DNA of 24,157 nucleotides from a virus. Shown piece by piece: positions 4,984-21,551 of this stretch. The stretch lies in IMG/VR virus record IMGVR_UViG_3300042934_001310, positions 1-24,157 of that record; one strand, written 5' to 3'. Both the position numbers and the translations under genes were made by a program. The notes beneath the pieces were generated by a model, which was not told where the DNA came from, did not search any database, and was given only the letters and a program-made list of their open reading frames with translations. The number at the start of each line of letters is the position of its first letter. Positions within the stretch are counted from its first letter, which is position 1.

Positions 4984-5203
4984 GGTCACGCCTATTCGCC
5001 GCAAGGGTGCCGGTGGTCCGCCTGCTAGTGGCGCTCACATTGACAGCGCCAGCTATGCCCTGCTGGTGGAAACCCTAGTGGGCTTCTTGGAGCTGCGCAT
5101 TGCCGAGGGTGACGCAGGCCGTCACTGCCCTGAACTGGAACGCCTGACCAACCAACTGGAACGGCTGGCCAAGCGCTTCACGCCGCCACAGGGGGCCGCA
5201 TGA
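4976..5203 (+). CDS. Hypothetical protein, 75 aa
   Basis: I chose the ATG at 4976 because GGGGGTGGAG lies just upstream and the longer frame from 4925 only adds residues read in the shadow of the previous gene. The protein has a basic, glycine-rich N-terminus (MAKVTPIRRKGAGG) and a helical remainder with heptad-like leucines (SYALLVETLVGFLELRIAE, ELERLTNQLERLAKRF). This suggests a small coiled-coil or helix-bundle protein. It sits directly before the primase-like gene and overlaps it by ATGA. Function unknown; an accessory replication factor is possible. Confidence 0.6.
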   Translation: MAKVTPIRRKGAGGPPASGAHIDSASYALLVETLVGFLELRIAEGDAGRHCPELERLTNQLERLAKRFTPPQGAA

Positions 5204-6090
5204 CCGACGCGACGATCCTCTTCCGTGACGCACTCCAATCGGCCTACGGGCTGCTCGACTGGCTCCCCCTAGACGATGGCGATATTCACCGCTTCCACGT
5301 CCCCGGCGACAAGCCCGGCACGCTCAACGGCTGGTACTGCCTGTTTGCCGATGGCATCGCCTCAGGCGCGTTCGGGAGTTGGAAGACAGGCGGCACCAAC
5401 ACCTGGTGTAGCCGTGAACCGGTGGACGCCCGCGAAGCCGAGCAAGTGCGCCAGCGCATCGAGCAGGCCCGGCGTCAGCGGGAGGCCGAACGGCAGCGGC
5501 GCCAGCTCAAAGCGGCCGGCCTGGCGCAGCGCTGGTGGCGTGATGCCCGTCGTGCCGACCCAGCCCACCCTTACCTAGTCGCCAAGGGCATTCGTGCCCA
5601 CGGCCTGCGCCAGCGTGGTGCCGACTTGCTGATCCCACTGTATGCCAGCGGCGTGCTGGTGAACCTGCAACGGATCGGCCCGGACGGCGAAAAGCGTTTC
5701 CTGTATGGCGGGCGAATCAAGGGCGCGTATTCGCCACTGGGGCGCATCACCCTGGGCAAGCCGCTTTGCATCTGTGAAGGCTGGGCCACGGGCGCCACGC
5801 TTCACGAGAGCGGCTACACCGTCGCCTGCGCGATGAACGCCGGGAACCTGAAACCGGTGGCGCTGGCGCTACGGGCCGACCACCCCGGTACCGAAATCAT
5901 CATCGCCGGCGACGACGACCGCGAAACCGAGGCCGAGGGCAAGGGCAATCCGGGGCGCACTGCGGCCCATGACGCCGCAGCCGCATGTGGTGGTTTGGTG
6001 ACCTTTCCCGAGTGGTCAGCCGACGCGCCGCTGACCCTTTCCGACTTCAACGACCTCGCAGCCTGGAGGTGCCGCCATGCGTCCGCCTGA
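5200..6090 (+). CDS. Toprim-domain primase-like protein
   Basis: A replication protein resembling the primase half of P4-alpha-like satellite replicases. A basic linker (about 76-105, RQRIEQARRQREAERQRRQLK) precedes 'RADPAHPYLVAKGI' (119-131), the conserved stretch seen before the Toprim domain in such proteins. The Toprim fold shows LCICEGWATG (E193, metal-binding glutamate) and IIIAGDDDRE (D238-D240, the DxD motif). There is no cysteine zinc finger at the N-terminus, so this protein may be a partial primase that works with the helicase downstream. It overlaps the helicase gene by 14 nt, indicating coupled expression. At 296 residues it is typical of stand-alone Toprim_3 satellite proteins. 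Confidence 0.88.
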   Translation: MTDATILFRDALQSAYGLLDWLPLDDGDIHRFHVPGDKPGTLNGWYCLFADGIASGAFGSWKTGGTNTWCSREPVDAREAEQVRQRIEQARRQREAERQRRQLKAAGLAQRWWRDARRADPAHPYLVAKGIRAHGLRQRGADLLIPLYASGVLVNLQRIGPDGEKRFLYGGRIKGAYSPLGRITLGKPLCICEGWATGATLHESGYTVACAMNAGNLKPVALALRADHPGTEIIIAGDDDRETEAEGKGNPGRTAAHDAAAACGGLVTFPEWSADAPLTLSDFNDLAAWRCRHASA

Positions 6091-7873
6091 TACCAACGTC
6101 ATCAATCTGCGTCCCGAGGCGCCCAAGGTCGAGCCTGATCGCCCGTGCTGGGGCGTATACGAGCACTGGGTAACCAATGAAAAGGGCCGCAGGCTCAAGC
6201 CTGGTGTGTACTGGCACGGCTTCAAGCGCAGCGCCGGCGATGATGACAGCGACGATGACAAGGCCGACCGCCCAATCACTGACGAGTGGATCGCCACGCC
6301 CGTGACCGTCGCCGCTCGCACCACCAATAGCGATGACGGCAGCGAAGGCCGGTTTCTGCGCCTGCTCACCGACAGCGGCCCCAAAGAGTGGATCATTCCC
6401 ATGGAGGTGTTCGGCGGAAGTGGTGAGGACGCCAGGCGGACGCTGTTCGGCATGGGCGTCATCATTGCGCTGAAGAAGCGCGGCCAATTCATGGAGTACC
6501 TGCTGGACCAGCGCCCTGCAGAGGTGTTCGCCACCACCTGCCGTCCTGGCTGGCATGAGTCAGGCGCCTTTGTGCTGCCTGGGCGTACCATCGGAAGCGA
6601 CAAAGTGCGCTATCAAGCCAGCGCCAAAGGTCAGAACCTGTTCAGCGTGCGGGGGAGCCTGGACGGCTGGAAGGCCGAAGTAGCGGCCAAGTGCGAGGGC
6701 AACCCGGTACTCACCCTGGCCATCGGCTGCGCCCTCGCTGGCCCGCTGCTGAGTTTGGTGGGCGTGCTGGGTGGTGGTGTTCACCTGGTGGGCGACAGCT
6801 CCAGCGGCAAGTCGCTGGCACAACTGATCGGCTCGTCTGTGTGGGGCGACCCAGGCATCTTCGCTGCGTCCTGGGATATGACCAAAGGCGGACTGGAGAT
6901 CGAGGCGTCCAGCCGTAACGACACCATGCTGCCCTTGGATGAGATCAAGCGGGCCGACCCCAAGCGCGTACAGGAAATGGCCTACTCGCTGGCTAACGGC
7001 CAGGGCAAGGGCACCATGACCCGCGACCGGGAGGCCCGCGGCAAGCTGAGTTGGCGCCTGCTGGCGCTGTCCAGCGGTGAACGCTCCCTATCCGAGCACG
7101 CGGCCATCAGCGGCAACGCAGCCCATGCTGGCGCCGAGCTGCGCATGGTCGACGTGAATGCCGGTACCCGCACACACCGCGCCTTCGATGAATTGCACGG
7201 CTTGGAGGGCGCCGACTTCCACCGCCAGCTCACGGTGGCTGTAGGAGCGAACCATGGGCATATCGGGCCGGCCTTCGTGGAGAAGCTGCTGGCCAGTGAT
7301 GACCGCCCCGGCCTGCTCGAGGACTTCGCCGGTATCCGCGCACAGTTCGTCGAGGACAACGCCCAGGCCGGGCGGGTGGCGGATCGCTTTGCGGTGATCG
7401 CGCTGGCGGGCGAAATGGCCATTGCCTACGGTCTGCTGCCCTGGACGCCAGGTACCGCTCTAGCTGACTGCCAGTTGCTGTACGGCGAGTGGTTGAGCCG
7501 GGTGGGCAGCGGCAATGCCGAGGATCGTCAGATCCTGGCCGGCATCCTCGACTTCATCGACAAGCACGGCAGCAGCCGGTTTTCGGATGTGAATGACCAG
7601 ACGCCTGACTCCAAGGTGTTCAACCGGGCCGGGTACTGGAAGGCCTCTGGGGGTAAGCAACTGTACCTGTTCAACAAGTCGGCATTGATCGAGGCCGCGC
7701 ATGGGTACGGACTGAGCCGCATCGTCAAAGCGCTGGATGGCGCCAGTGCGATTGCCGAGCGCGGGGCGGATCGGAAGCGACACGCCAAGAAGTACCGCGT
7801 ACCTGGTGGCGGTTCACCTTGGCTGTATGTGATCGACCCCGAGGCCTTGGACAGTGAAGGTGGTGCCGTATGA
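6077..7873 (+). CDS. DUF927-type helicase, replication ATPase
   Basis: A 598-residue AAA+-like helicase acting in replication of the element. The N-terminal 110 residues are variable and acidic. The DUF927 core holds Walker A at 239-246 (GDSSSGKS), Walker B at about 284-290 (MLPLDEI, D288/E289) and a sensor-like LLALSSGE (329-335). 'GDPGIFAASWDMTKGGLEIEASSRNDTML' is the usual linker between the two Walker motifs. The C-terminal part (about 480-590) looks like a winged-helix DNA-binding region (KVFNRAGYWK...) that could read the adjacent iterons. Together with the Toprim gene it does the work of P4 alpha, split in two. Its stop overlaps a doubtful frame lying over the iteron cluster. Confidence 0.9.
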   Translation: MRPPDTNVINLRPEAPKVEPDRPCWGVYEHWVTNEKGRRLKPGVYWHGFKRSAGDDDSDDDKADRPITDEWIATPVTVAARTTNSDDGSEGRFLRLLTDSGPKEWIIPMEVFGGSGEDARRTLFGMGVIIALKKRGQFMEYLLDQRPAEVFATTCRPGWHESGAFVLPGRTIGSDKVRYQASAKGQNLFSVRGSLDGWKAEVAAKCEGNPVLTLAIGCALAGPLLSLVGVLGGGVHLVGDSSSGKSLAQLIGSSVWGDPGIFAASWDMTKGGLEIEASSRNDTMLPLDEIKRADPKRVQEMAYSLANGQGKGTMTRDREARGKLSWRLLALSSGERSLSEHAAISGNAAHAGAELRMVDVNAGTRTHRAFDELHGLEGADFHRQLTVAVGANHGHIGPAFVEKLLASDDRPGLLEDFAGIRAQFVEDNAQAGRVADRFAVIALAGEMAIAYGLLPWTPGTALADCQLLYGEWLSRVGSGNAEDRQILAGILDFIDKHGSSRFSDVNDQTPDSKVFNRAGYWKASGGKQLYLFNKSALIEAAHGYGLSRIVKALDGASAIAERGADRKRHAKKYRVPGGGSPWLYVIDPEALDSEGGAV

Positions 7874-8229
7874 CCACCAACGCCACTAGCCGAGATTGCC
7901 CATATCCACAGGAACCTAGATTTGGTGGGAACAGTGGGAACAGTGGGAACAGCCAGCAGGGCCGGGGCCCACAGCCGTTCCCACCCAATAAAAAGAGTGG
8001 GAACAAGTGGGAACACACAATCGCTTTCCAATATAAGCGTGATGCTTATCAACCCTGTTTGGTTATCACAGTTCCCACAAAAATCGGCGTGGGAACAAAC
8101 TGGGAACAGAAAAACACCGCTGCAGGCCGCGAGTTTGCTGGGGCGTTCCCACTGTTCCCACTGTTCCCACACTTTTTAAATTCACAGGAACTTGTGTATG
8201 TGAGTATTGCAATGGAGGTAACTCCATGA
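7870..8229 (+). CDS. Doubtful frame over the iteron region, 119 aa
   Basis: An open frame that starts in the helicase stop (ATGA) and ends over the next start. Its product contains GNSGNSGNS and FPLFPLFP stretches. These are just translations of the GTGGGAACA repeats in direct and inverted orientation, and the rest is unremarkable. Coupled start and stop favour a gene. The repeat structure, which explains most of its sequence, favours non-coding origin DNA that happens to stay open. I keep it at low confidence. Confidence 0.25.
   Translation: MTTNATSRDCPYPQEPRFGGNSGNSGNSQQGRGPQPFPPNKKSGNKWEHTIAFQYKRDAYQPCLVITVPTKIGVGTNWEQKNTAAGREFAGAFPLFPLFPHFLNSQELVYVSIAMEVTP
7925..8170. repeat. Iteron cluster, candidate replication origin
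   Basis: Perfect GTGGGAACA occurs three times in tandem at 7925-7951, then at 7997-8005, 8007-8015 and 8089-8097, with a one-mismatch copy at 8100-8108. The inverse GTTCCCAC occurs at 7977-7984, 8071-8078, 8145-8152, 8154-8161 and 8163-8170, the last two preceded by T. That makes twelve copies in 246 bp, clustered as a direct triplet at the left end and an inverted triplet at the right end. P4 and similar satellites have short direct and inverted iterons recognised by the replicase near their replication gene, and this cluster follows the helicase directly. The middle contains an AT-richer stretch (about 8015-8075) suited to unwinding. Confidence 0.75.
8033..8049. repeat. Short perfect inverted repeat inside the iteron cluster
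   Basis: ATAAGC-GTGAT-GCTTAT is a perfect 6-bp stem with a 5-nt loop, in the AT-rich centre between the left and right iteron groups. It could be a structured initiation point or a binding site for an accessory factor. Confidence 0.4.
8212..8227 (+). promoter_or_regulatory. Hairpin that buries a Shine-Dalgarno site and start codon
   Basis: ATGGAG-GTAA-CTCCAT is a perfect 6-bp inverted repeat. Its left arm and loop contain the GGAGG ribosome site, and its right arm ends in the first two bases of the ATG at 8226. In mRNA this would hold back translation of the next gene unless opened by upstream ribosomes or a protein. The structure is seen; regulation is inferred. Confidence 0.45.
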
Positions 8230-8528
8230 GCCTCCTTGCCGACCTGCTCAATCACATGCCGCCGAACGTTGCTGGTGCTGGCAAACCACCCATGGCGAAA
8301 CGCACCCCGGATCGTCCGCGCCTGGTGCTGGTCGAGCCTGCCCAATTGCCACCCAGCCCGTACGCCAACGCCGCCAATGCCACGCCTGAATGGCGCCAGG
8401 CCCGCGACCAGTACATCAGCCATGTCATGACCTGCCGGGGCTGCTATGCGCCCGCTGGTCGCCACTGCCTGATCGGTACCGAGCTGCGCGCCACCTACGA
8501 CAACACGCCGATGGAGGCCCATCCATGA
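8226..8528 (+). CDS. Small protein with a cysteine cluster, 100 aa
   Basis: Not a named family. After a proline-rich N-terminal half, the C-terminal part (about 55-90) reads WRQARDQYISHVMTCRGC and then YAPAGRHC. H66, C70, C73, H80 and C81 could form one zinc site. Such small zinc-binding proteins are common next to satellite replication genes and may act as DNA-binding or adaptor proteins. Its start is in the hairpin at 8212-8227, and its stop overlaps the next gene (ATGA). Moderate confidence that it is real; function unknown. Confidence 0.65.
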   Translation: MSLLADLLNHMPPNVAGAGKPPMAKRTPDRPRLVLVEPAQLPPSPYANAANATPEWRQARDQYISHVMTCRGCYAPAGRHCLIGTELRATYDNTPMEAHP

Positions 8529-9124
8529 CGCTCACACCGACCATGCGCCTGTGCGATATCGCCTTGAAGCCAGGTATCAGCGCCAGTACGCAACTCATCA
8601 CGACGCGGCGCATCTGCCGCAACATCAGCCGCAATCTCGATTCGATCCGCGCCGAGCGACGTGCCATGTGTCGGCAGATGGGCAAGCTGAAAGCGTTCCT
8701 GCCGTTCACCCGACAGGCCATTGCCGATCTGCAGGAGCAAGCGCAGACGCACCGTTCTGTTGAGCGAGCCAAGGCGCTGGTGGCGCTGGCCGGGTTTGGC
8801 CGGTCGCTGCTGTTCGACCATGACGGGCTGGCCCAGGCCTTGGGGTACGACCGTCTGTGCGACCTGCTGAGCGTGAACACGGTGGAGCGCGAGCAGGCCA
8901 GGCAGGAGGGCGTCAACAGCCTGGAAGGCCTGGTATTCACCTATGCGCTGGAGGACAGCGCAGAGCGCCGGGCGCAGGAGTGGAATGACGCACCACTGTT
9001 CAACGCCTGTCACGCCGCCATGGCGGACTTCATCAGGGATTGCCCCGATGGGGTGTTGCCTGACCCGTTCGCACCTGGGGCGCCATTCGGGCCGAAGCTG
9101 CCACCCAAGCTGAACGTGGTGTAA
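8525..9124 (+). CDS. Hypothetical helical protein, 199 aa
   Basis: I chose the ATG at 8525, which overlaps the stop of the gene before it by ATGA; the longer frame from 8390 only adds out-of-family residues. Not recognised. Residues 30-80 form a strongly basic helix (RRICRNISRNLDSIRAERRAMCRQMGKLKAF) followed by a likely coiled segment. Residues 95-150 look like a compact domain (FGRSLLFDHDGLAQALGYDRLCDLLSVNTVEREQAR). The end is proline-rich. Basic helices suggest nucleic-acid binding. It belongs to the operon that carries the replication genes. Confidence 0.65.
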   Translation: MTLTPTMRLCDIALKPGISASTQLITTRRICRNISRNLDSIRAERRAMCRQMGKLKAFLPFTRQAIADLQEQAQTHRSVERAKALVALAGFGRSLLFDHDGLAQALGYDRLCDLLSVNTVEREQARQEGVNSLEGLVFTYALEDSAERRAQEWNDAPLFNACHAAMADFIRDCPDGVLPDPFAPGAPFGPKLPPKLNVV

Positions 9125-9127
9125 GCC

Positions 9128-10072
9128 ATGGCCGCGCCAGCAATGAAACAGGCGGATTCAGCCACTAGGACGAAACAACGGGTTTCAGACGATCAGCGCC
9201 GGCAGGTGCTGGACCTGCGCCGCCGTCACTCGCTGCGTGAAGTGGCCGAGATGACCGGCCTGCCGCTGGGAACGGTGAAGACCCTGGTTTCACGTTCCGG
9301 GGCGTTCCGCGACAACGAACAGCATCGCGCCATGTTCACCATGCCGCCGATCAGCGCCAGCACCGAGACCCTGCCGAGCGTGCCCGAGCTGCCGCCGCAG
9401 GAGGTGGTCACCGGTGATAAGGAGGTGGATGCGGTGCTGTGGCTGCGCTCGATCATCGGCACCGGTCAGAGCGTTCTGATTGAGCGAGCCATGGAGGGCG
9501 CCAAGAAGATCAGGACGCCGCTCGATGTGCTGGAGAAGCGCTACACGGCTCATCTGATGGCTGCCAACCCCGGCCATCCTTTCGCGGCCATGTCGTCGTT
9601 CGGCTTCGCTGACCTGGATGCGCTGGCCACTCGGGCCGTCAAGCAGCACCAGTTGAGGCTGGAAGGCGCTGCCCGCTTCGGTGATGCCTTGCTGGCCGAC
9701 ACCGAGGCGGAAGCGTTCTGCATCAACGCGCTGCGTGGTTTGGAACAAAGCGGTCCTCTGCTCGATTTTGACAAGACGCAGGTCGCCGCCCGGTTCAACG
9801 CCCATCCTGAGCTGCTACCACACACCCTGGCTGATTGCCTGTACGAACTGGACTACTGGGATCACCTGTACCGGATGCGTAACGCCGTCAACCGTGACGC
9901 CAGCGACGGACCGGCCGAGGCCACAGCGCGAGATTGGTTTGTGTTCGGCCTGCTGGCGCAGGTCCGGCCCCGCGACAAAGCCGAGGCGCTGACGGTGTTC
10001 CGCTACCTGGTCGCCAGCGAGCGCGACGACATGGCCGAGTCGGAGGCAATTCTTTGCAACCTGATCGGATAG
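9128..10072 (+). CDS. Helix-turn-helix protein, putative regulator
   Basis: A 314-residue protein with an N-terminal Hin/Trp-repressor-like HTH at about 20-58 (SDDQRRQVLDLRRRHSLREVAEMTGLPLGTVKTLVSRSG, with S35 to T49 as the turn region). The larger C-terminal part (about 95-314) is helical and unrecognised. It lies last before the tape measure gene, so it could be the activator of the late gene, like Delta in P4 or Ogr in P2, although those are zinc-finger proteins and this is not. The start has no good Shine-Dalgarno site; a second ATG at 9143 is an alternative. A terminase small subunit also starts with such an HTH, but no large subunit is present. Confidence 0.6.
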   Translation: MAAPAMKQADSATRTKQRVSDDQRRQVLDLRRRHSLREVAEMTGLPLGTVKTLVSRSGAFRDNEQHRAMFTMPPISASTETLPSVPELPPQEVVTGDKEVDAVLWLRSIIGTGQSVLIERAMEGAKKIRTPLDVLEKRYTAHLMAANPGHPFAAMSSFGFADLDALATRAVKQHQLRLEGAARFGDALLADTEAEAFCINALRGLEQSGPLLDFDKTQVAARFNAHPELLPHTLADCLYELDYWDHLYRMRNAVNRDASDGPAEATARDWFVFGLLAQVRPRDKAEALTVFRYLVASERDDMAESEAILCNLIG

Positions 10073-10181
10073 TCAGGTTGTGCCATCAGCGCAGATCAAC
10101 ACCAACGGGCATAGCCCACTACCGGCGCAAGCAGCGCCATCGAGAGAGCACGATGAGACTAGAACGAGTCAGGAGGAGCAT

Positions 10182-13100
10182 ATGACGACCATTGCCGAGC
10201 TTGGAATACGGGTAGATAGCGGGGACGCTGCCCAGGCGGCGACTGATCTCGAAAGGCTGACGGAGGCTGGTAAGCGCAGCGAGGAGTCAGCAGGCAGGAC
10301 TGGGCGGGCATGGGAGTCGGCGCTCGCTGGCATGCAAGGCGACACCCGGCAGATCGTGGTGGAACTGCAACAGCTCAACGCCAAGCAGGCCCATCTGGCG
10401 CAACAGATGATCACTGTGGGGCGTGCTGTCACCACCGCCTCAACAGCGTTCAGCGGAGCCGCGGCTAACATGACAGCCATGCGCACCGGCGCAGAGAAGG
10501 CTGGCCAAGCGCAGACTGCGTTATCGACTGTGAACGACGTAGCTGCGCAATCTGCACGCCGATCTGCAGAGGGCGTCGAGCAGCAACAGGCCCGACTGCT
10601 TGGTATGGCAAAGGCCTCACTGGAGGCTAGTGGATACGTTCAGTCGCTGAACCACGCCACTCAGCAGAGCATCGAGGTCACTCGCCAGGCCAATACGGTG
10701 CTATCAGACCGGACGAGCCAGCAGGCTGCCATTGCCAGCAGAGCGCAGGCGATCCTAGCCAGTGAGGACAGGCTAGCGGCTGCCTCGAGGGCCACCACAG
10801 CAGCCCAGCGCGATGAGAGCAAGGCCCTGAGCGAACTGCTAGGCAAGATCGACCCGACAGTGGCTGCTTTGGGGCGCCTGGATGATATGGAGCGCAAGCT
10901 ACAGGGATACCGGACTTCCGGCGCGCTCGATGCGGAGACTTTTGGCGAGTACAAGACGAAGCTGGACCAGACCCGCAATGCCTTGGGCGGTGTCGATATT
11001 GCGCTGGGCAAGACCGGAGTGAGCGCAAAACAGACCGCTGCCGCGATGCGGATGCTGCCGGCGCAGTTCTCAGATGTGGTAGTCAGCCTGCAGGCCGGCC
11101 AATCGCCGCTCACTGTTCTTTTGCAGCAGGGCGCCCAGGTCAAAGACTCGTTCGGCGGTGCTGGTGCTGCTGCTCGAGCAATGGGCGGCTACGTCGCTGG
11201 ACTGGTGACGCCTGTTAACGCTGCTGCCGCAGCCGTTGGAGTTCTAGCGGTTGCTGCTTATCAAGCTGGTAGAGAGCAGGACGCTTTCAATCAAGCAGTC
11301 ATCCTCACTGGAAACTACGCTGGCACGTCCGGCGCCAAGCTGACAGACCTGGCCAAGCAGATCAGCGCTACCGTGGGTACCACTGGCGCCGCCGCGTCGA
11401 CGCTGGCGCAGATTGCTGGCGCAGGGGACCTAGCCGGCGAGAGTTTCAAGATAGTCGCTACCACAGCGCTCGAAATGGAAAAGGTAACAGGCCGAGCTGT
11501 GGACGAAACGCTGGCGGATTTCCGAAAGATCGCTGATGACCCGGTGAAGGCTGCCGAGGATCTGAACAGGCGCTATCACTGGCTGACGGCATCCACGCTC
11601 GAGCAGGTTCGCGCCCTGGTCGATCAAGGCGAGAAAACCGAGGCCGTGAGAATAGTCACCGAGCAATTCGGCGAGACCATGACCCGTCGGGCGCAGCTCA
11701 TCAAGGAGGAAATGAGCGGCCTGCCGAAGCTGTTCAATGATATCGGGGATGCCGCCGCCAAGATGTGGGATGGCATCAAGGGCGTATGGCGTGATCCCAC
11801 CTTGGATAAGGTTGCAGATGGTCTGCGCCTTCAAATCAGCTCTATGGAAAATATCCGAAAAGATTTCCGCAACGAGGGCAATTATGACCCCAAAAAGCTG
11901 AAAGCTTGGAGGGCCAGACTGGCTGCAATTGAAGGCCTCTCGAAGCCTGCTACTGGTGTAGTTAGCGCGCAGGGTCAAAGCGACAATGACAAGCTCAATG
12001 CGCTGCTCGATCGTGCCGCTCCGAAGGCTGAGAAGCTGGCAGATCGCATGAAAGAGATTGAGCGGCTCGTGGCCTCGAGCCGTAAGGAGGGGTTTACCGT
12101 TACAGATGAGCAGGTCGAGCAGCTGCGCGCTAAAGCAAGGAAAGACTTCAAGGAGACGAAGACGCCTACAACTCCGGTCAACCTCACGGATGTGAAGGAT
12201 TCACGCAACGCCTTGTCCATGATCCTTTCCGACTACCGAGGGTACGAGAGGGAGCTGAGCGCAATCCAGAAGTCAGGCGTGATTTCGCAGGAAGCGGTGT
12301 ACGCCCAACGGGTGTCCTTGGCCAAGCGGCAGCGGGCGGATGTAACGGGTGCTTACACGGAGGAAATTCAGGCGCTCGAAGAGGCCAAGGGGCTAGCATC
12401 TACCACCGGCGGGCAGCGTATCCAGCTTGACCAGCGAATCGCAAAAGCTCGCTCTGAAATGGTCCGTGCTCAGCGGGAGGCTGACTCTGAGCTGGCAGTG
12501 CTGGCCACGAACGAGCAGGGCAGGCTGGCCAAGCAGGAGGTCGCGGTCAAGGCGTACACCGATCAGCTCGAGCGGCAGCGGCAGGCGCTGGCGACGTCCG
12601 GTACTCGGGCAGCCAATGCCTTGGGCATGGGCGACCGGCAGGCCGGGCTGCAAAGCAATTTGGACAGCGCAACCGACCGGTTCAACGAGGACCGCGCCCG
12701 GCTGCTTGATCGCCGGCGCACAGCCCCTGACAAATACTCCCAAGGCGACTACGAGCGCGATCTGGTCATCCTCGCTCAAGCGGAAGACCGGTACCGGGAA
12801 ACCGTGGTCGACAACTACGACAAGATCACGGTGGCCCAAGGCGACTGGCGCAACGGCGCTTCCTCTGCCTTCCAGAACTACCTGGAGCAGGCACGGGACG
12901 TGGCCGGCCAGACCCGGACGTTGTTCACCGGCGCCTTCACCTCCATGGAGGACGCAGTGGTCAACTTCGCCATGACCGGCAAGCTGTCGTTCTCCGACTT
13001 CACCAAGTCGATACTCGCGGACATGGCCCGGATTGCGACACAGCAGGCGGCATCCAGTCTGCTTTCCAGCCTCGGGACGTCTGCCTTGGGCGGGTGGCTG

Positions 13101-13613
13101 GGGGGCGGTGGTGCTGCTATTGGCGCTACCGGCGCTGCTGGCGCGGCCGGTGGAGGCGGCTTTGATTTCGGTCTCGGCGTTGCCTCGGCAGGAATGACCT
13201 ACCGTCCTGGCGGTTTCTCTGCTGGCGGTTACACCGGTGACGGCGGCAAATACGAGCCGGCCGGGGTCGTGCACGGCGGCGAGTTCGTGCTGAGGCGTGA
13301 GGTAGTCAGCCAGCCCGGCATGCGTGACTACCTAGATACGCTGAACACCCGCGGCTACGTCGATGGCGGCTATGTCGACTCCATCACCACGCAGCCAATC
13401 CCGCGTCAGACGGCTGTAGGCGGCAATAGTTTTCCCATTAGTGTCTCGGTTTCGGCCGGCGGAGAAGGAGGCGCGGCATCAGCAGTGACAAGCGCGGAGG
13501 CGGCGGAGTCAGGCAAACGCATTCAACAGGCCGTCAAGTACGAAGTAGAAACGGCAATCGCAAAATCATTGCGCCACGGTGGCGCCATTTGGCGCGCGGT
13601 GAATGGGAGATAA
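10182..13613 (+). CDS. Lambda-type tail tape measure protein
   Basis: A 1143-residue tape measure protein, the scaffold that sets siphophage tail length and passes DNA out at infection. I chose the ATG at 10182 because AGGAGG lies 7 nt upstream; the frame is open from 10080 without a ribosome site. The N-terminus (TIAELGIRVDSGDAAQAATDLERL) is the typical start of H-family tape measures. A long coiled-coil region follows. Then comes MRMLPAQFSDVVVSLQAGQSP at about 288, a hydrophobic stretch at about 337-360, and the conserved C-terminal NFAMTGKLSFSDFTKSIL block at about 928 (the TIGR01541-type domain). A Gly/Ala-rich linker (about 970-1000) and a globular end complete it. It is full length and intact. 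No other tail, head or packaging gene is present in the window, so this is an orphan morphogenesis gene in a satellite-like setting. Confidence 0.92.
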   Translation: MTTIAELGIRVDSGDAAQAATDLERLTEAGKRSEESAGRTGRAWESALAGMQGDTRQIVVELQQLNAKQAHLAQQMITVGRAVTTASTAFSGAAANMTAMRTGAEKAGQAQTALSTVNDVAAQSARRSAEGVEQQQARLLGMAKASLEASGYVQSLNHATQQSIEVTRQANTVLSDRTSQQAAIASRAQAILASEDRLAAASRATTAAQRDESKALSELLGKIDPTVAALGRLDDMERKLQGYRTSGALDAETFGEYKTKLDQTRNALGGVDIALGKTGVSAKQTAAAMRMLPAQFSDVVVSLQAGQSPLTVLLQQGAQVKDSFGGAGAAARAMGGYVAGLVTPVNAAAAAVGVLAVAAYQAGREQDAFNQAVILTGNYAGTSGAKLTDLAKQISATVGTTGAAASTLAQIAGAGDLAGESFKIVATTALEMEKVTGRAVDETLADFRKIADDPVKAAEDLNRRYHWLTASTLEQVRALVDQGEKTEAVRIVTEQFGETMTRRAQLIKEEMSGLPKLFNDIGDAAAKMWDGIKGVWRDPTLDKVADGLRLQISSMENIRKDFRNEGNYDPKKLKAWRARLAAIEGLSKPATGVVSAQGQSDNDKLNALLDRAAPKAEKLADRMKEIERLVASSRKEGFTVTDEQVEQLRAKARKDFKETKTPTTPVNLTDVKDSRNALSMILSDYRGYERELSAIQKSGVISQEAVYAQRVSLAKRQRADVTGAYTEEIQALEEAKGLASTTGGQRIQLDQRIAKARSEMVRAQREADSELAVLATNEQGRLAKQEVAVKAYTDQLERQRQALATSGTRAANALGMGDRQAGLQSNLDSATDRFNEDRARLLDRRRTAPDKYSQGDYERDLVILAQAEDRYRETVVDNYDKITVAQGDWRNGASSAFQNYLEQARDVAGQTRTLFTGAFTSMEDAVVNFAMTGKLSFSDFTKSILADMARIATQQAASSLLSSLGTSALGGWLGGGGAAIGATGAAGAAGGGGFDFGLGVASAGMTYRPGGFSAGGYTGDGGKYEPAGVVHGGEFVLRREVVSQPGMRDYLDTLNTRGYVDGGYVDSITTQPIPRQTAVGGNSFPISVSVSAGGEGGAASAVTSAEAAESGKRIQQAVKYEVETAIAKSLRHGGAIWRAVNGR

Positions 13614-19318: not shown

Positions 19319-20242
19319 ATGCTCGATAAGTATGAGCGTTGGGTTCACTTCTATACTGCTTCATTACTGAGTTCCCCTATTGGTGCTCCAGAATTTAGTA
19401 TTAAGGAAGTATTTAAAAAGCTTGAAGAGCGCTTCGCAAGAAGTCAGTGCTTCAAGCTGGTGGAACGCAGTTCTGCATGTATCCGAATTACTCGCTTTGC
19501 CTTTAATGAATCTGAAACCTCGGTTGCGCTGTTGCTGCAATATTCGGACTCAAAGGCTTCAGATCCCTCGTTTGGTGATCTCGTATCTGGCAACCTCCGT
19601 CAGGAGCCTAAGCTTGCTGGTGAAGGTATTGCTGTCTCCGCGCATCTGCATTTGAAGTTGACTTCTTTACCCAATAGACCCCTTGAGTTCTTGCTGAAGC
19701 TCGAGGATGTTCCTGGGCTGGGGAAGAGTCGGATCCTGCCTTTTTTGAATGGCATGATTAAAGAAATCATGCAGCGTGACTTCATTGATGCTGTAGATGG
19801 TAAAAAGAAAGTCTGCCATCCGATTCTAATATTGGAGCACCATGCTTCACAATCTCTTAAAGAAAACCTTGATAGTGGCGAGCTTCGATTTATTGAGCTA
19901 AGTAAAAATAAGAGTGTTTCGGGCATGGATGAGGACCATTATTTGGTCCGGAGCACTGCCAGCTTGAAAGTCAAGATTGCGGCTAACCTCGACGGAGAAG
20001 TTTCTGTAGGAATCGTGAACCGATTGAAGGAAAAATACGCAAAAGACGGCTATGATCATGTAAAAGTGGTGTTCAAGCACAAGGAAGGCAAGCAGCGTAC
20101 TGTCGACGTTAGCGGTCCTCGCCAGGATGCGGGAGAGGCATTGTTTGGCAAGGTTGAAATGATTACGCTGGTCAATCCTCTTCCTCAATGCTCTGACTAT
20201 TTGAATGATGAAGTGCTCAAGAAGATGAATGCACTAAAGTAG
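19319..20242 (+). CDS. Hypothetical soluble protein, first gene of a two-gene unit
   Basis: A 307-residue protein with AAGGTAGG about 9 nt before the ATG. No signal peptide or membrane segment. It seems to have an N-terminal domain (1-130, alpha/beta, FSIKEVFKKLEERFARSQCFKLVERS) and a second part rich in beta strands (about 205-300, ASLKVKIAANLDGEVSVGIVNRLKEKY, HVKVVFKHKEGKQRTVDVS). Not recognised; not clearly KwaB/DUF4868. It is AT-richer than the flanking genes. The stop lies 10 bp before the start of a four-helix membrane protein. A soluble sensor with a membrane partner is the plan of several abortive-infection systems, so a defence role is a fair hypothesis and no more. Confidence 0.75.
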   Translation: MLDKYERWVHFYTASLLSSPIGAPEFSIKEVFKKLEERFARSQCFKLVERSSACIRITRFAFNESETSVALLLQYSDSKASDPSFGDLVSGNLRQEPKLAGEGIAVSAHLHLKLTSLPNRPLEFLLKLEDVPGLGKSRILPFLNGMIKEIMQRDFIDAVDGKKKVCHPILILEHHASQSLKENLDSGELRFIELSKNKSVSGMDEDHYLVRSTASLKVKIAANLDGEVSVGIVNRLKEKYAKDGYDHVKVVFKHKEGKQRTVDVSGPRQDAGEALFGKVEMITLVNPLPQCSDYLNDEVLKKMNALK

Positions 20243-20252
20243 AGGTAATGTG

Positions 20253-20933
20253 ATGAGTAGCTCTAAAAGACTTCTTATGCCTCTGTCATATCTGCGCATC
20301 GAACGGAAGGGTAAAGCTTTCGACGAGCTTGTGTTGCCATTACTTCTTTTGGCATTAACTCTTTGCTTTTTCTGGTTGCTAGACTGGAAACTAGTTATTT
20401 TTGGTAGCAGTGGCCTTGTTTCCGGTGTGGGCAGTTATCTGCAAGTTGTCACTGGCTTCTATATAGCGTCTCTAGCGGCAGTTGCAACATTCAATCAAAA
20501 AAACATGGATTTAAGGATGGCAGGGGATAGCCCTACACTTACTGTTGAGTGGAAGGGGCGTCGGCTAGAAGAGCAGTTGACGCGTAGGAGGTTTCTATGC
20601 TTCTTGTTTGGATATCTCTCGTTTTTGTCAATTTTTGTCTATTTCGGTGGAGTAGGAGCTAACCTTATCGCGCCCCCTCTGGTGGCCGCTCTTCCTAAAG
20701 ACTATTTGTTTTTTGTCAAATGGGGCTTTGTATCTGTCTATCTGTTGGTTGTGTATAATTTGATTTGTACTACCCTGCTCGGCTTGTATTACATGACTGA
20801 GCGTATCCATCGTCCCGAATCCGAATTTGTGGGATCTGACAGCCAGCCTGAAGAGGACGAGCGCCCTGATTCGGATCGTGATGATAGAGCAGTAAATTTT
20901 GAAAAGCCCTCTGCCGAAGAAAACAGCTGGTAG
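20253..20933 (+). CDS. Four-helix membrane protein, second gene of the unit
   Basis: The start is at ATG 20253 (AGAGGT about 7 nt upstream); GTG 20250 is in frame and possible. Predicted membrane helices by eye are 27-44 (VLPLLLLALTLCFFWLLD), 63-80 (LQVVTGFYIASLAAVATF), 114-134 (FLCFLFGYLSFLSIFVYFGGV) and 152-178 (LFFVKWGFVSVYLLVVYNLICTTLLGL). A basic cytoplasmic loop (KGRRLEEQLTRRR) lies between helices 2 and 3, and the C-terminal tail is strongly acidic (EEDERPDSDRDD). No transporter or enzyme motif is visible. It is AT-rich like its partner and would be co-transcribed. It could be a pore-forming or membrane-disrupting effector, but that is inference from architecture only. Confidence 0.75.
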   Translation: MSSSKRLLMPLSYLRIERKGKAFDELVLPLLLLALTLCFFWLLDWKLVIFGSSGLVSGVGSYLQVVTGFYIASLAAVATFNQKNMDLRMAGDSPTLTVEWKGRRLEEQLTRRRFLCFLFGYLSFLSIFVYFGGVGANLIAPPLVAALPKDYLFFVKWGFVSVYLLVVYNLICTTLLGLYYMTERIHRPESEFVGSDSQPEEDERPDSDRDDRAVNFEKPSAEENSW

Positions 20934-20942
20934 AGAAAATTT

Positions 20943-21551
20943 TCAGGCGTCGCGTATTCTTAAAACTGTCGTAGTTGAGCAGTTGGTGTGTCGGGCAGTT
21001 GCTCGAATACCTAAGCCAGCTGCCAGCAATTCTCTAACTCGTTTGTGCAGATTCTCATCCACCGGGCGTCCTTGGTACTTACCGGCCGCCTTGGCCTTCT
21101 CGATTCCCTGCGCTTGACGCTCGCGGCGCTGTTCATAATCTTTTCTGGCTATCGCCGCCATCATTTCAACCAGCATCGAGTTGATTGCTGCCAACATGCG
21201 TCCCGTGAACTCGTCGCCTTTCATATCACGCATTCCTTGGTGGCTAGTGGGCAGGTCGAGCGCGATGATACGCAGTCCTTTTGTGTCGATTCCAGCCTTC
21301 AGCTTTGCCCAGTCTTCCGCAGGGAGACGGGGCAGGCGATCAATAGATTCAATTAACAGCACATCGCCCTTATGGGCATCATTCAGTAGGCGCAGTAGCT
21401 GTGCCCGATCTGCGGCGGCACCGCTAGCGTTCTCCAAGTACTCGCAGGCAATGACGTTGTTATGGTCGCTAACGAACTTCTCCAGGAAGGACCGGGCGCG
21501 GCCGGCGTCTTGCTCGTCGGTGGATGCTCGAAGGTAGGCGCGGATGAACAT
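20943..21551 (-). CDS. Small serine recombinase (resolvase/invertase family)
   Basis: A 202-residue serine recombinase. The N-terminal catalytic domain has R8 and the nucleophile S10 in YLRASTDEQD, R49 in ADRAQLLRLL, and D71-R72 in IESIDRLPR. The long E-helix follows (about 115-150), then GKYQGRP and a C-terminal HTH (about 170-200, LHKRVRELLAAGLGIRATARHTNCSTTTVLRIR). The size fits resolvases and invertases, not large integrases. It converges on the membrane-protein gene, with only 9 bp between the two stops. It could resolve or invert this accessory segment. No invertible segment or full res site is obvious, but a palindromic stretch lies just upstream of its start. Confidence 0.9.
   Translation of the reverse strand: MFIRAYLRASTDEQDAGRARSFLEKFVSDHNNVIACEYLENASGAAADRAQLLRLLNDAHKGDVLLIESIDRLPRLPAEDWAKLKAGIDTKGLRIIALDLPTSHQGMRDMKGDEFTGRMLAAINSMLVEMMAAIARKDYEQRRERQAQGIEKAKAAGKYQGRPVDENLHKRVRELLAAGLGIRATARHTNCSTTTVLRIRDA

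Follow-up and report, generated by a model that had tools for sequence, protein, structure and literature searches.

The locus considered here lies in a window of 24,157 bp, an entire IMG/VR virus record, and raises the question of whether a cluster of short repeats behind a predicted helicase gene is a replication origin and, if so, which part of which protein reads it. The initial annotation had proposed an origin at 7925–8170, targeted by the winged helix at the C terminus of the DUF927 protein. The genes around it are encoded on the + strand in the order integrase, AlpA, primase, helicase, array, small genes and tape measure, and int, AlpA and a pri-rep-ori module of the PICI type are all present:

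1–1323, + strand: tyrosine integrase
2416–2679, + strand: AlpA
5200–6090, + strand: TOPRIM (DnaG-type) primase (Pfam Toprim_3, 2.2e-10; PHROG DNA primase, 9.3e-66)
6077–7873, + strand: DUF927 replicative helicase (Pfam DUF927, 5.5e-65)
7484–7870, + strand: C-terminal winged-helix domain of the helicase, codons 470–598 (AlphaFold model of the domain alone)
7745–7820, + strand: beta-wing, codons 557–581, with K567, K572 and S580 (co-variation with the iteron word)

Primase and helicase are two open reading frames, with no alpha-like fusion. Profile searches matched the helicase to SaPIbov1 Rep (8tch, 1e-17) and to the SCCmec helicase Cch (5dgk, 8e-10), and its predicted structure resembles 5dgk (Z 17.8) and 8tch (Z 17.7) across most of its length, the ATPase core (264–368) of the model being of low confidence. 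Judged by these comparisons, the DUF927 helicase is probably the origin-binding initiator (Rep) of the element. A full-length tail tape measure gene (10080–13613), odd for a satellite, is the only structural gene recognised among those examined. Further along, two adjoining genes at 19319–20933 resemble the PADLOC candidate defence pair PDC-M53A (6.6e-29) and PDC-M53B (2.3e-49), next to a serine resolvase/invertase gene on the − strand (20943–21551).

The repeat unit (G/C)TGGGAAC(A/G/T) occurs 12 times within 7925–8170, seven times on the + strand (starts at 7925, 7934, 7943, 7997, 8007, 8089 and 8100) and five times on the − strand (7976, 8070, 8144, 8153 and 8162), while 5000 dinucleotide-preserving shuffles of 7874–8225 gave 0.054 matches on average and 1 at most. 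The twelve direct and inverted iterons of the initial annotation are thereby confirmed; a single further match is found in the window outside the array. Eight of the 12 are exact copies of GTGGGAACA, and those at 7976, 8070, 8100 and 8144 carry one mismatch each. As had also been described, the array directly follows the helicase gene, with 52 bp between the stop codon (7873) and the first iteron, and both of its outer ends consist of three tandem 9-bp iterons in opposite orientation, which face inwards; 7925–7950 and 8145–8170 form a perfect 26-bp inverted repeat. Six iterons on the left (7925–8015) and six on the right (8070–8170) leave a centre of 54 bp. This centre is richer in AT than the window, as claimed, but only moderately so (0.53–0.60 vs 0.426). 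The features of the array are:

7907–7918, + strand: flanking element on the left, CACAGGAACCTA, common to every iteron type (alignment of 25 relatives)
7925–7951, + strand: three tandem iterons GTGGGAACA
7976–7984, − strand: iteron GTGGGAACG
7997–8005, + strand: iteron GTGGGAACA
8007–8015, + strand: iteron GTGGGAACA, which completes the left set of six
8016–8069, no strand: centre, probably the unwinding region of the origin, with the kept words AATATAAG and GGTTATCAC (conserved columns)
8070–8078, − strand: iteron GTGGGAACT, the first of the right set
8089–8097, + strand: iteron GTGGGAACA
8100–8108, + strand: iteron CTGGGAACA
8144–8170, − strand: three tandem inverted iterons, GTGGGAACG at 8144–8152, then two GTGGGAACA

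The word CACAGGAAC is found on both flanks of the array in the same orientation (7907–7915 and 8183–8191). The central word GGTTATCAC, at 8060–8068, and the left flank are common to the iteron types A, B and C defined below. Single-stranded DNA of the array folds strongly (z −8.4), a trivial consequence of the inverted repeats. A structured RNA was rejected, with no Rfam match in 7500–8600, and so were DnaA boxes, with no TTATNCACA within the array region.

Origins of SaPIs lie directly 3' of rep, whose product recognises them through its C-terminal domain; apparently two Rep hexamers are bound at the origin (PMC7581432). In Gram-negative PICIs an AT-rich region 3' of rep has an iteron set on either side, and a rep-ori segment from one of these elements supports plasmid replication (PMC6092414). 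SaPIbov1 shares with the window a homologous DUF927 self-loading helicase (an activity predicted here from homology), a C-terminal winged helix and iterons directly 3' of rep; unlike SaPIbov1, the window has a Gram-negative host and 9-bp units of the GTGGGAACA type in two sets of six, and its close relatives swap several words. Likewise, EcCICFT073 and its Gram-negative kin have int, AlpA, primase/rep, two iteron sets and an AT-rich region, whereas in the window primase and helicase are separate and a tape measure gene lies behind them, along with other cargo. The origin of satellite P4, to which the array had initially been likened, involves the alpha protein, type I iterons and crr. P4 has a similar life style, and there too short iterons are read by the element's own replication protein, but the window has a two-gene primase/helicase of which the helicase is a DUF927 protein, and no second iteron cluster was seen in this 24 kb record, which is possibly incomplete. 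The repeat unit indeed differs from that of P4, as had been remarked; the closest known system is, however, supported to be the SaPI/PICI-type origin, with its DUF927 Rep and iterons directly 3', rather than P4. Altogether, layout and Rep homology bear out the proposal of a probable origin, and its assignment to the known SaPI/PICI kind is well supported.

A further relative is phiAH14b, a mitomycin-induced Pseudomonas satellite that is apparently packaged in helper capsids (PMC4936722), as described in passages that make no mention of an origin. The order int-AlpA-primase-DUF927 helicase-array is the same as in the window and the helicases are 84% identical, but phiAH14b has a type-B word, NGGGGAAC, and a type-B wing. 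Its sole iteron cluster (9300–9522) lies directly behind the helicase.

In order to follow the array through related elements, we assembled a first set of 87 relatives, mostly from Pseudomonas, and assigned iteron types from the arrays by pattern. The geometry is kept in over 80 relatives, with sites at nearly equal distances behind the helicase stop, and the word varies. Type A (GTGGGAAC) is found in the window and 14 relatives, type B (NGGGGAAC) in 40 and type C (GTGGCAAC or CGGCAAC) in 22, with AGGGACA (L061, L063) and GGGGACA (L062) as rarer words. The change is concerted, every copy within an array carrying the changed word: type B differs from type A by G instead of T before GGGAAC, and type C by C instead of G at the last G of GGG. 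Type-B relatives usually have ten or eleven recognisable sites, and one of their tandem spacings is 8 bp, not 9. Four type-C loci (L015, L017, L021 and L057) have only T before GGCAAC, at 45/45 sites, whereas both T and C occur at this position in type-C loci that have the D(N/S/I) wing; this difference is possibly a finer layer of the wing-word code. Some relatives (L053, L068, L071) have no array behind the helicase; L053 carries a type-A wing with no array after 5791, and its flanking DNA looks rearranged. Incompatibility was considered as a driver of word diversity and found no support, as the pairings in five strains with two elements (B+C, A+C, A+B, B+B and C+C) are close to random.

The word was then compared with the helicase, a co-variation with the C terminus having been suggested by the initial annotation. 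Using 31 helicases made non-redundant at 95%, a set that still holds related sequences, the nearest neighbour was of the same iteron type in 31/31 cases for residues 540–598, but in 13.5/31 for residues 1–500. This strongly positive result, obtained from sequence comparison, is due to columns 557–582, where the C-terminal winged helix has its beta-wing. At column 567, type A has K (15/15) and type B has S (40/40) after a one-residue insertion, while the residue is mostly deleted in type C; column 572 is K in types A and B and N in type C (22/22), and column 580 is S/T in types A and B and Q in type C (22/22). On a tree of the N-terminal part of the helicase (87 rows) the word requires 21 switches, the least possible number being 4, and the sister of the window is a type-B element, L009. 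Among independent, well-supported pairs, N572 and Q580 accompany type C (GTGGCAAC) in 9/9 and S567 accompanies type B (NGGGGAAC) in 9/9 (sign test, p 0.004), with no difference in column 567 for one further pair. The only element with a B-like word and no S567, L165, belongs to a separate lineage; its wing (EKDRTRNTKKY, against EKGQKRNTKKY in its AGGGACA sister L063) apparently represents an independent solution, as read from these sequences.

Modelled alone with AlphaFold, the domain 470–598 is a winged helix (pLDDT 79.5) with helices at about 481–497, 534–540 and 546–555 and a wing that ends at strand 582–586. The solved structures nearest to it are SaPIbov1 Rep (Z 10.4), TcpK with oriT DNA (Z 8.8) and Cch (Z 7.8), although the Foldseek E-values of these matches are weak (0.015–0.3). 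TcpK inserts its beta-wing into the major groove of tandem 9-nt boxes, its canonical helix making one backbone contact only (PMC6137059). This protein of plasmid pCW3 has a similar winged helix and reads its boxes (GGAACTTTA) with the beta-wing, but it is no helicase: it acts as a stand-alone dimer at a conjugation oriT, and the identity is 9%. Going by the model, the specificity residues found here would belong to the part of the fold with which TcpK contacts DNA, a likeness at the level of the fold. The C-terminal winged helix (470–598) is therefore probably the iteron reader, and the earlier assignment of this domain as the target-binding part holds in so far as the domain co-varies with the word; the signal, however, lies in the beta-wing, and the canonical recognition helix (about 546–555) is nearly constant between iteron types.

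How wing and word change together is seen when the window is aligned with L009. Identity is 90–96% up to about 7600, drops to 62% in the wing codons, rises to 89% in the gene tail, falls to 50–73% in the array and returns to 93% in the next gene, which indicates that about 600 bp have been replaced; a stretch of about 450 bp holds both the wing codons and the array. In L005 (5850–6430), and likewise in L075, a type-A wing and a type-A array are followed by a complete orphan type-B array, and these tandem arrays look like the remnant of a cassette exchange. The sequences thus show the wing of the initiator and its sites moving together as one specificity cassette, in which the wing would do most of the reading.

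It could be argued that wing and iterons co-segregate merely as neighbours and that another protein reads the iterons. At the DNA level (28 representatives), the nearest neighbour is of the same type in 28/28 for both the wing codons (z 13.6) and the array (z 14.4), but the iteron type is tracked as well by the spacer (z 8.0) and by the first 55 bp beyond the array (z 9.8). Mere linkage therefore accounts for some of the association, in keeping with the single exchanged block of the window-L009 profile. In contrast, no association is seen for the primase (z about 0) or for the gene that follows the array (z 2.1), and the last part of the helicase gene, which separates the wing from the array, is barely type-linked (z 2.2, 18.4/28) although it is inside the exchanged block, which argues for a functional coupling on top of the linkage. 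Moreover, the same residues changed in all nine independent switches, related initiators bind their origins with the C-terminal domain, and TcpK, which has a similar fold, binds 9-mers. Neighbourhood as the whole explanation is hence unlikely.

It is less probable still, and in our view quite doubtful, that the array is no origin but serves as an operator or in copy control, acting on the helicase gene or on the operon that follows from 8226. Initiators often also regulate their own expression, and a dual role is conceivable for an array between two genes; however, two sets around an AT-rich centre match the published PICI and SaPI origins, neither the window nor phiAH14b has another cluster, and the downstream gene is not type-linked. 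That the repeats belong to a coding sequence can be practically dismissed: the frame 7870–8229 is open for 119 codons in the window and for 107–119 codons in most type-A relatives, but no conserved protein was found there, the frame being reduced to 49–53 codons in most type-B relatives and variable in type C, and 8-bp spacing steps and repeats on both strands also speak against it.

Very probably, then, 7925–8170 serves an integrative satellite-like element as its replication origin, and the DUF927 helicase would bind the iterons there with the winged helix at its C terminus, mainly through the beta-wing. Because homology and anatomy are shared with SaPIs and PICIs, we propose a similar loading mechanism, in which the helicase would bind each 9-bp iteron via the winged helix, the beta-wing (about 557–582) would read mainly the variable bases, and the two sets of six iterons would load two hexamers head to head across the centre, which would melt; the separately encoded TOPRIM primase would then prime the opened strands. 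Six sites per side would fit one hexamer per side, but this is no more than a hint, given that ten or eleven recognisable sites are the usual number in type B. We further consider it rather likely, with less assurance than for the origin itself, that a few beta-wing residues set origin specificity while the recognition helix stays constant, and that satellites swap a wing-plus-origin cassette of about 600 bp, passed between elements as one unit, many times within one genus. As part of this reading, the code may be legible: K572/S580 would specify G and N572/Q580 would specify C at the third G of GGG in GTGGGAAC, and a one-residue insertion with S567 would specify G instead of T at position 2.

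We also asked how far such arrays extend, by searching viral contigs for the type-A word, and likewise for the type-C word, in three exact tandem copies. Arrays were found directly behind DUF927 helicases of 22–36% identity in five contigs (L100, L101, L106, L107, L112) and about 600 bp behind another of this group (L102); scanning viral contigs with a profile yielded little more. Plasmid DUF927 genes are accompanied by other words, TGGGACA in Legionella, GTTGGTTCA in E. coli and CTGGTAACA in Salmonella, and pHS87b has AGGGAAC some 660 bp behind its DUF927 gene. A GTGGGAACA array also lies at the 3' end of a gene from a different helicase family, VapE-like by Pfam (L110, 5829–6066), and another one in L109 (314–484), where the gene is VapE-like only by resemblance of a truncated C terminus. 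Phage-like contigs L103 (3904–3992), L108 (9917–9942) and L111 (6580–6668) have GTGGGAACA triplets with no recognised adjoining helicase. Conversely, TOPRIM-DUF927 fusions of 900–974 aa are common in Pseudomonas (L186–L205), and 19/20 have no array directly behind the gene; this subfamily must have either its origin elsewhere or a different role. It rules out DUF927 as a general marker of such origins and, together with the array-less relatives above, means that DUF927 alone does not imply an iteron origin.

These results provide a probable origin for widespread Pseudomonas satellite-like elements, including phiAH14b, for which we found no mapped origin. What appears new and unexpected is the natural series of wing-plus-word switches, though an earlier description is possible beyond the open-licence literature searched. 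The series is matched, in that helicase bodies of up to 97% identity go with wings and words that differ by type, and the word differences are essentially single-base, which makes initiator-origin recognition testable by reciprocal swaps. For the satellites themselves, such an exchange would mean that a new replicon specificity may be gained in one recombination step.
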